Of a stretch of 64,000 nucleotides of DNA, positions 42,244-54,598 are shown piece by piece. The DNA comes from Caballeronia insecticola (GTDB taxonomy: Bacteria; Pseudomonadota; Gammaproteobacteria; Burkholderiales; Burkholderiaceae). The stretch covers positions 186,001 through 250,000 of the forward strand of contig NC_021287.1 of assembly GCF_000402035.1 (NCBI RefSeq), in the 5' to 3' direction. The notes below the pieces were generated by a model. The model saw only the letters and a list, made by a program, of their open reading frames with translations. It ran no database searches and was not told the origin of the DNA. How positions within the stretch are numbered: the stretch's first letter is position 1; every line of letters begins with the position of its first letter. The position numbers were made by a program, and so were the translations under genes.

Positions 42244-44222
<1,979 letters not shown>

Positions 44223-44300
44223 TTACGCTAGACGTAGCGATAGGGGCCGCGCTAGGCGGCCCGAAATAATTCGGAGGGAGGAGACTTGGGTGAAGCGCAT
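44223..44300 (-). CDS. leuL: Leucine leader peptide of leuA
   Basis: A 25-codon frame, ATG at 44298-44300 to TAA at 44223-44225. It has five leucines: CTC at codon 9 and CTA at codons 16, 20, 22 and 24. CTA is very rare in this GC-rich genome, so four in nine codons is striking. The peptide begins MRFTQVSSLRIIS and ends LRLA. Leucine-codon runs before leuA are the hallmark of attenuation by leucyl-tRNA supply. The expected transcription start is within a few bases of the ATG, so translation may be leaderless. Confidence 0.75.
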   Translation of the reverse strand: MRFTQVSSLRIISGRLARPLSLRLA

Positions 44301-44308
44301 GCGTTCGA

Positions 44309-44337
44309 CTTTAAACCAGCGTTGAATAGCGTGTCAA
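44309..44337 (-). promoter_or_regulatory. Sigma-70-type promoter for leuL-leuA
   Basis: Minus strand perfect TTGACA (44332-44337), 17 bp, TTAAAG (44309-44314). The start point would fall near 44301-44303, about 395 bp ahead of leuA. Confidence 0.75.
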
Positions 44338-44362
44338 ATGACTATTTCGCTGATCGTTGCCA

Positions 44363-45334
44363 TTACACAGGTTTGCGCACGACATCGGCGATCACTTCGA
44401 CCTGACGCACGAGCGCGGGCGGGACCGGCACGTCGCCGCGCAGCACGCACTCGATCCAGCGCGCGGTGGTGGCGGCGTCGAGCGCCTCGGGTAGTTCGAC
44501 GGGCGGCGCATCCGGCTGGGAATGCTCGGGCGAGATCAGCGTTTCGACATGGCCGTCGTGGAACCAGTCGACCTGTACCTGACGCCGCGTATCCGCGACG
44601 GCTTCGCCTTCCGTGCCGCGCGCGAGCAGTGCGCCGCCCGCCGCCGCATCCGGATGCTCGGTGAACAGCCCGGTGAGACTCTCGCGATATTCCGGATGCG
44701 TGTAGTTGACGAGCCGCAGGCCCGGATCGGCAAACGGCTGAAGAATCTTGACGAGCGTATGCGTGGAGTTGCGCACGCCCATCCGGCGCCTCAAGGCCAG
44801 AAGCCGCGCGAGCTTCGGCGCCAGCACGGCGACCGGCGCGAAGGCGAGCCGGCGCGACGCGAGACTGTCCTCGATTTCGTCGTGTGAGGTCGCATGCGCG
44901 ATGCCGAGTTCGGCGAAGATTTCCGCGCTCGTCACGCGGCCGGGATCGTCGGTCACGCCGTGCACCAGCACCGGCACGCCTTCGCGCGCGAGCAGCATCG
45001 ACAGCAACGGGACGAGGTTCGGCGTCCGGCGCGCGCCGTTGTAGCTCGGAATCGACACGGGCCGCGCATGTTCGCGGCCATCCTGAACGTGCAGCGGCTC
45101 GAACGACCGATGCGCCGCCGAAAGCATCGCGGCGAGTTCGGCGGACGTCTCGCCCTTCACGCGATAGGCAAGCAGCACGGCGCCGAGTTCGAGATCGGAG
45201 ACGCGGCCATCGAGCATGGCTTCGTAGAGCGCGTAGGTATCGTCGCGCGAGAGGGCACGCGCGCCGTTCGGCCCGCGGCCGATTTCTTTGATATAGCGTG
45301 CGCAGGCAAAAGTGGGGGCAGCAGTGTCATTCAT
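44363..45334 (-). CDS. ybiB: YbiB/TrpD2-type DNA-binding phosphoribosyltransferase-fold protein
   Basis: A 323-residue homolog of anthranilate phosphoribosyltransferase that belongs to the YbiB (TrpD2) group. The N-terminal helical domain has LSRDDTYALYEAMLDGRVSDLELGAVLLAYRVKGE in its usual form, and NGARRTPNLVPLLSMLLAREGVPVLVHG replaces the GTGGD loop of true TrpD. E. coli YbiB binds nucleic acid without enzymatic activity and is linked to the SOS response. The ATG at 45334 has no clear Shine-Dalgarno. A longer frame to 45613 has no family sequence. Confidence 0.85.
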   Translation of the reverse strand: MNDTAAPTFACARYIKEIGRGPNGARALSRDDTYALYEAMLDGRVSDLELGAVLLAYRVKGETSAELAAMLSAAHRSFEPLHVQDGREHARPVSIPSYNGARRTPNLVPLLSMLLAREGVPVLVHGVTDDPGRVTSAEIFAELGIAHATSHDEIEDSLASRRLAFAPVAVLAPKLARLLALRRRMGVRNSTHTLVKILQPFADPGLRLVNYTHPEYRESLTGLFTEHPDAAAGGALLARGTEGEAVADTRRQVQVDWFHDGHVETLISPEHSQPDAPPVELPEALDAATTARWIECVLRGDVPVPPALVRQVEVIADVVRKPV

Positions 45335-54410: not shown

Positions 54411-54488
54411 TGGCAGGGGAGGAAGGACTCGAACCCTCGCATGCCGGAATCAAAATCCGGTGCCTTGACCAACTTGGCGACTCCCCTA
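54411..54488 (-). tRNA. tRNA-Gln (anticodon TTG), copy 1
   Basis: A 78-base cloverleaf with the CCA end encoded. Acceptor TAGGGGA pairs with TCCCCTG (U1-G72 wobble, as in tRNA-Gln), anticodon arm CCGGA TTTTGAT TCCGG gives TTG, and the T arm is GAGGG TTCGAGT CCTTC. Identical in sequence to copy 2. Confidence 0.96.
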
Positions 54489-54520
54489 CACTGACTTTTT
54501 GAGTCTTGCCGGATAAAGAA

Positions 54521-54598
54521 TGGCAGGGGAGGAAGGACTCGAACCCTCGCATGCCGGAATCAAAATCCGGTGCCTTGACCAACTTGGCGACTCCCCTA
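54521..54598 (-). tRNA. tRNA-Gln (anticodon TTG), copy 2
   Basis: Identical 78 bases to copy 1, displaced by exactly 110 bp. The spacer is also similar (CTGACTTTTTGAGTCTTGCCGG against CTAACTTTTAGTCTTGCCGG), indicating tandem duplication of a 110-bp unit. Confidence 0.96.

Follow-up and report, generated by a model that had tools for sequence, protein, structure and literature searches.

In enteric bacteria leucine is well known to control leuA at the RNA level, and the leader peptide of leuL, with its leucine control codons, precedes leuA there. Leader-peptide control can also be Rho-dependent, as in tnaC, which is catabolic and answers free tryptophan via nascent-chain arrest. For Actinobacteria, the excerpted text of two papers describes leucine control of leuA at the RNA level as known and its mechanism as unsettled (PMC1262725, PMC8079986). 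According to such excerpts, leuL1 of Streptomyces lividans is a leucine-rich leader before leuA that is leaderless and has no typical Rho-independent terminator (PMC8079986), the leuA leader of Corynebacterium glutamicum contains four consecutive Leu codons (PMC4046766), and changes in the leuA leader of Streptomyces coelicolor were inconsistent with classical attenuation (PMC1262725). In the LEU element of Actinobacteria, as described in PMC1262725, leuA is likewise preceded by a leader ORF containing leucine codons, and rnTrpL/peTrpL of Sinorhizobium meliloti is described as an attenuator RNA whose first bases are the leader ATG (PMC7298713).

The leader studied here lies in a 64,000-nt stretch of Caballeronia insecticola DNA (NC_021287.1, positions 186,001 to 250,000), called the window below; all coordinates are those of the window and the features lie on its minus strand. 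A leader ORF of 25 codons with the stop codon TAA (44223..44300, ATG at 44300) encodes the peptide MRFTQVSSLRIISGRLARPLSLRLA and ends 0.3 kb upstream of leuA, which starts at 43908. This leuA (42244..43908) encodes a 2-isopropylmalate synthase of the TIGR00970 (leuA_yeast) type, with a score of 709.9 bits against a cut-off of 697.4. The initial annotation had described a frame with one CTC and four CTA codons, and these are indeed present, CTC at codon 9 and CTA at codons 16, 20, 22 and 24. It had also called CTA rare in the surrounding DNA, which agrees with our count of 3 among the 225 Leu codons in eight neighbouring genes of the window. In the 6.96-Mb genome there are 5 occurrences of the pattern CTANNNCTANNNCTA, as against 214 for a reversed-pattern control. 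The -35 element TTGACA proposed earlier (44332..44337) stands, while the -10 element, first given as TTAAAG at a spacing of 17, is better read as TAAAGT (44308..44313), 18 nt from the -35 element and 7 nt before the ATG, because this pair is the only promoter-like site within 43800-44900 (0.1 in shuffles) and TTGACA with TAnnnT is kept in all 74 leaders of the first set described below. The preceding ybiB-type gene ends at 44363, 25 nt ahead of the leader promoter.

It may be noted that in comparison with enterobacterial leuL the present leader shares the leucine control codons before leuA, but it appears leaderless by its promoter spacing, we found no intrinsic terminator or supported antiterminator for it, and it has no Rfam match. 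Searching Rfam over the whole window at the gathering cut-off returned only two tRNAs, located elsewhere than the leader, and a search of 43850-44400 at E up to 1 returned no match. A search of PMC open-access text for literature on this leader found nothing. The actinobacterial leaders, going by the excerpts, resemble it in being leucine-rich, placed before leuA and free of a typical Rho-independent terminator; they are transcribed leaderless, as the present one appears to be. Their peptide differs, and the excerpts mention neither a CTA bias nor the hairpins 1-3 and C-rich spacer described below. Both the GTGGC..GCCAC and the LPIG patterns, known from the distant relatives treated further on, are missing from the window.

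The set used to follow the leader in relatives comprised the window and 73 of the best 80 leuA loci, out of 527 encoding a relative (74 leaders in total); the divergent loci L053, L068 and L078-L082, which have CTA-containing leaders of their own, were excluded. A further 20 leaders came from genomes already matched by a covariance model of the leader, with at least 2 CTA codons required, so that these 20 are not independent of the CTA counts; all 20 yielded a leader. Four of them (L192, L195, L204, L210) repeat loci of the first set, which leaves 90 distinct leaders. Leader length was 24 or 25 codons across the 74 leaders. The initial annotation had suggested looking for conserved Leu codons before leuA in Burkholderiaceae, and these were found: at the four main Leu positions CTA occupies 296 of 296 cells in the first 74 leaders and 357 of 360 cells in the 90 distinct ones. 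By comparison, the leuA genes at the 74 leader loci contain 2271 Leu codons, only 2 of which are CTA. One of the conserved CTA codons lies between stems 1 and 2, where base pairing does not explain it.

The promoter is equally well kept, with an exact TTGACA and a TAnnnT 17-18 nt away in 74/74 leaders. The distance from the end of the -10 element to the ATG is 6-7 nt in 73 of the first 74 leaders, in all 20 further ones and in 89 of the 90 distinct ones, the exception being L044, where it is 9 nt. No SD tetramer (GGAG, GAGG or AGGA) was found 4-18 nt upstream of the leader ATG in any of the 90 distinct leaders. The spacing, from which the transcript start is derived, and the missing SD fit a leader ORF that has no 5′ UTR. 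The leaderless start proposed in the initial annotation accords with this, and the transcript would begin at or near the leader ATG.

With strict filters, the covariance model gave a single match in each of 125 genomes out of 299 from Burkholderiaceae, and these belong to 5 of 25 genera. In all 112 comparable genomes (13 were not comparable) the match sits 176-332 nt upstream of leuA on the same strand. The earlier claim that leuA is preceded by a leader peptide carrying leucine control codons is supported. For reference, leuA of the TIGR00970 type is present in 231 of the 299 genomes at E up to 1e-120. In genera g3 and g10, whose LeuA is about 61-67% identical among the matches listed, the covariance model found no match. 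This is a real leucine leader; on these comparative grounds we consider it very likely that it senses leucine, and the CUA codons would with high probability be the sensing element. The leader may be described as a deeply conserved, apparently leaderless form of probable leuA control in Burkholderia and relatives, with near-invariant CUA codons and no shared intrinsic terminator. As an observation on the side, codons 10 and 11 (44273-44268), CGA and ATT, are near-fixed within CTCCGAATTA (72 and 73 of 74) and fall outside every supported stem.

The first 161 nt of the leader fold much more stably than shuffles (z = -5.0). The initial annotation had placed two stem-loops over the last CTA codons, which holds for stem 2 (44207..44239, nt 62-94), which includes codons 22 and 24 (the final pair of CTA codons), has the stop codon in its loop and a 3′ arm that lies past the ORF, and does not hold for stem 1 (44244..44262, nt 39-57), whose loop contains CTA codon 16. 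Hairpins 3 and 4 exist downstream in addition to these two. Stems 1 and 2 are formed in 98.1% of cells over 36 distinct sequences, with four pairs changing on both sides; none of 500 shuffles reached the observed value in four of five measures, and for the fifth, the number of pair types, 39 of 500 did. With the divergent leaders included, compensatory changes affect four of the six pairs of stem 1, whose arms read GGCCGC/GCGGCC, GGCCGA/TCGGCC and AGTTGC/GCAACT; L193 is mis-parsed in this count. For stem 2 much of the sequence never varies; the paired fraction over distinct arms (.945) only equals the shuffle maximum because most of the stem is invariant, and its support comes from few pairs. 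Stem 3 (44174..44206) has a variable loop. Of 73 leaders (L018 is missing from this count), 47 form the stem with its full seven pairs, and 25, mostly from one genus, have T-A where the others have C-G at a single pair; 23 of these 25 share one arm combination. Covarying stems, which the initial annotation had proposed to look for, were thus found as compensatory changes in stems 1 and 3; hairpins 1, 2 and 3 are conserved, with clear compensatory changes for 1 and 3. In a free helix scan stems 1-3 rank high in the joint set, where a chance-looking helix between a pyrimidine stretch and GAGGG came first. Further downstream, hairpin 4 (GUCGUCAGC ... GCGAGGGUC, 44084..44132) is a predicted fold of the orthologous stretch in relatives; its form is kept with changed letters, no U-tract was seen, and the base of the hairpin pairs with the GAGGG of a 58-codon ORF. 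A pairing of its GUCGUCAGC with the leader was rejected, being by eye not kept between genera.

Two parts of the leader RNA are rich in C and poor in G. The first is the 5′ part of the leader (nt 4-38, 44263..44297), with C.425 and G.119 and more C than G in 90/90 leaders, a C-G excess reached by 0.2% of leuA control windows. This part could possibly provide one half, the first, of a Rho loading site, or it may simply be a 5′ end kept free of structure, as leaderless initiation may need. The second is the spacer after stem 3 (44133..44173), pyrimidine-rich, G-poor and mostly unpaired, with GCAGTTCC repeats, a candidate rut site. Here C exceeds G in 74/74 leaders (median C/G 2.7; C.38, G.15), the mean unpaired probability is.65 against.39 and.37 in the flanking parts, YC steps make up.258 against.142 in leuA windows, and the mean C-G excess is reached by 0.35% of control windows. 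A ranking of all windows by C-G is less clear: only 30 of the 74 leaders have their largest value between 10 and 120 nt past the leader stop, and the median of the leaders is attained by 8% of control segments. Richness in C with few G predicts Rho sites only weakly. The composition fits a split Rho loading site and could reflect other needs.

Since the spacer is C-rich, G-poor and mostly unpaired in all 74 leaders, we favour leucyl-tRNA sensing coupled to Rho-dependent termination, that is, a leucine-sensing leader-peptide attenuator of leuA on a leaderless message, and consider this account somewhat more probable than its rivals taken together; for Rho as the effector by itself the chances are roughly even. 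We infer the leucine response, the stalling and the role of Rho as follows. Transcription would start at the leader AUG or no more than one or two bases away, where a ribosome would initiate with no Shine-Dalgarno site. With ample leucyl-tRNA for CUA the ribosome would run through and exit at the stop codon inside hairpin 2, upon which hairpins 1-3 would close and the C-rich RNA of the leader 5′ half and the spacer would be exposed; Rho would then load on it and halt RNA polymerase ahead of leuA. When leucine is short, ribosomes would stall and queue on the CUA codons, hairpins 1 and 2 would stay open, and the queue would cover the 5′ C-rich part, so that Rho is excluded and leuA is made. How a stalled ribosome would block Rho is a guess, and it weighs against the Rho proposal that a ribosome stalled on the late CUA codons does not cover the spacer. 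The likeness to tnaC is the possible Rho effector downstream of a short ORF; the difference is that starvation sensing is proposed here and Rho is only a candidate. The leader offers a testable case of a leader peptide that works without an intrinsic terminator, and a link to the LEU element, whose mechanism is unsettled.

This link comes from more distant relatives (other genera of the family, Oxalobacteraceae and a Pararobbsia-type group), which have a second CTA-containing ORF, mostly ending in LxLPIG, followed by GTGGC...GCCAC crossed by a second, covarying helix, a candidate for an a-b-a'-b' pseudoknot. The crossing helix was found in 46 of 47 places, all of them chosen by the GTGGC..GCCAC pattern, with no chance control; five of the places were known from a first scan, several are one genome twice, and base-stem matches are sometimes trivial. 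Many distant relatives also have a stem between the Leu run and the SD, and several by inspection carry both leaders. Judged by the description excerpted from PMC1262725, this betaproteobacterial pseudoknot unit resembles the LEU element. Within the 74 loci, LPIG is found in none, and GTGGC..GCCAC in 6 of 13 Paraburkholderia-type, 1 of 35 Caballeronia-type and 0 of 26 Burkholderia loci. LEU-like units were noted at L123, L125, L127, L133, L171-L190, L078-L082, L118-L120 and others. In other Burkholderiales families, Leu leaders ending in LLLRPART, LLRLAR or similar were seen by inspection (L154, L160-L162, L166-L170); they differ in sequence, and several lie near a -10-like site and look leaderless.

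The genome encodes a second LeuA elsewhere, of the E. coli type and 29% identical to that of the window, and it too is preceded by a leader (L211, G000:C1:1841446-1841529, minus strand), which has 28 codons, CTA in 5 of 6 Leu codons and TATAGT 6 nt before the ATG, and looks leaderless. This leader and its relatives (L212-L217) form a hairpin with CTA in the loop, and by eye no U-tract terminator was seen at the second leader. It was matched in 7 of 100 family genomes, all 7 from its own genus, of which 8 genomes were sampled. A more specific and tentative form of the Rho account, which we regard as possible though rather doubtful, would be a ribosome-occlusion Rho attenuator with a split site, half of it in the leader ORF and half past three hairpins, where ribosomes stalled on the first half switch leuA on, a like design stands before both unlike leuA genes, and an ancestor had this leader in tandem with an LEU-type pseudoknot that was largely lost in the Burkholderia-type lineage.

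Among the alternatives, control of translation survives best, and even so we think it unlikely: the state of the leader would alter access to the Shine-Dalgarno region of leuA, a possibility also considered for the LEU element of Actinobacteria. The window fold has a hairpin over this region (CUCUCUCG/CGAGAGAG, 43919..43955), in which the partner of the leuA SD is a neighbouring segment that does not include the leader codons, and the pseudoknot of distant relatives, often with its Leu-run:SD stem, points in the same direction. But the CTCTCT..AGAGAG pattern of this hairpin occurs in 14 of 35 Caballeronia-type loci and in none of the 13 Paraburkholderia-type or 26 Burkholderia loci, though the leader is kept there. 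The motif CGCUACG close to leuA, which could pair with the 3′ arm of stem 2, counts for this reading by its presence in 28 of 35 Caballeronia-type loci and against it by its presence in 1 of 13 Paraburkholderia-type loci and 0 of 26 Burkholderia loci, again with the leader kept in all; its pairing with stem 2 was rejected on these counts.

Classical attenuation, as proposed in the initial annotation, with mutually exclusive hairpins and an intrinsic terminator, was not supported: no shared terminator was found and the candidate antiterminator shows no covariation, and we rate it as improbable. In this scheme the 3′ arm of stem 1 (GCGCGGC) would pair with the 5′ arm of stem 3 (GCCGCGC) as an antiterminator competing with stems 1 and 3, and stem 3 would be the terminator. 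The pairing is complete (7/7) in 63 and nearly so (6/7) in 11 of the 74 leaders, but shuffles equal the observed covariation values, and by eye it is gone from divergent leaders where stems 1 and 3 differ (L206, L207, L193, L196, L197, L202). In addition, the geometry suggests that the antiterminator arm, which must be free, would be masked by a ribosome whichever CUA codon it occupied. The alternative pairing of the 5′ arm of stem 1 with the end of stem 3 was dropped, as all 7 pairs form in only 24 of 73 leaders. No U-tract follows stem 3 in the window, where terminator-like sites number 0 (1.0 on average in shuffles), and a U-rich stretch after the spacer was rejected as a terminator on this basis. 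Across the lineage no common intrinsic terminator was found; weak sites occur in 18 of 81 leaders, 16 of these among the 74, and eight of the 16 are Paraburkholderia loci with 5-7 bp at 182-196 nt after the stop. Folding the RNA behind five ribosome positions gave no replacement for hairpin 3 common to the three groups; hairpin 3 was lost at only one position, in two groups when the ribosome front stood at nt 90, because the cut took away its 5′ arm. Here the leader also departs from rnTrpL/peTrpL, which has tryptophan codons and mutually exclusive terminator and antiterminator structures.

Still less probable is an arrest of the ribosome by the nascent peptide (SLRLA), or a short RNA or peptide acting in trans like peTrpL/rnTrpL of Sinorhizobium. 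A near-constant C-terminal peptide across leaders would suit this, as would the excerpted finding that rnTrpL begins with its leader ATG (PMC7298713), but the CTA conservation fixes the codon itself beyond the residue, the middle of the peptide varies, with RLSA or RLAA in place of RLARP, and some leaders have SLSLA or PLRLA. A chance ORF with no function, for which its small size is the only argument, can be practically dismissed given 125 of 299 genomes with the leader and near-invariant CTA codons.

Between the leader and leuA lies the 58-codon ORF mentioned above (MHAASRTF..., 44081-43905), which has GAGGG before its ATG and a stop that overlaps the leuA start. All 35 Caballeronia-type loci and 11 of the 13 Paraburkholderia-type ones have a similar start, and the ORF is possibly a remnant of the second leader ORF seen in distant relatives. 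The two tRNA genes of the window (54414-54597) have equal scores and are 110 nt apart.
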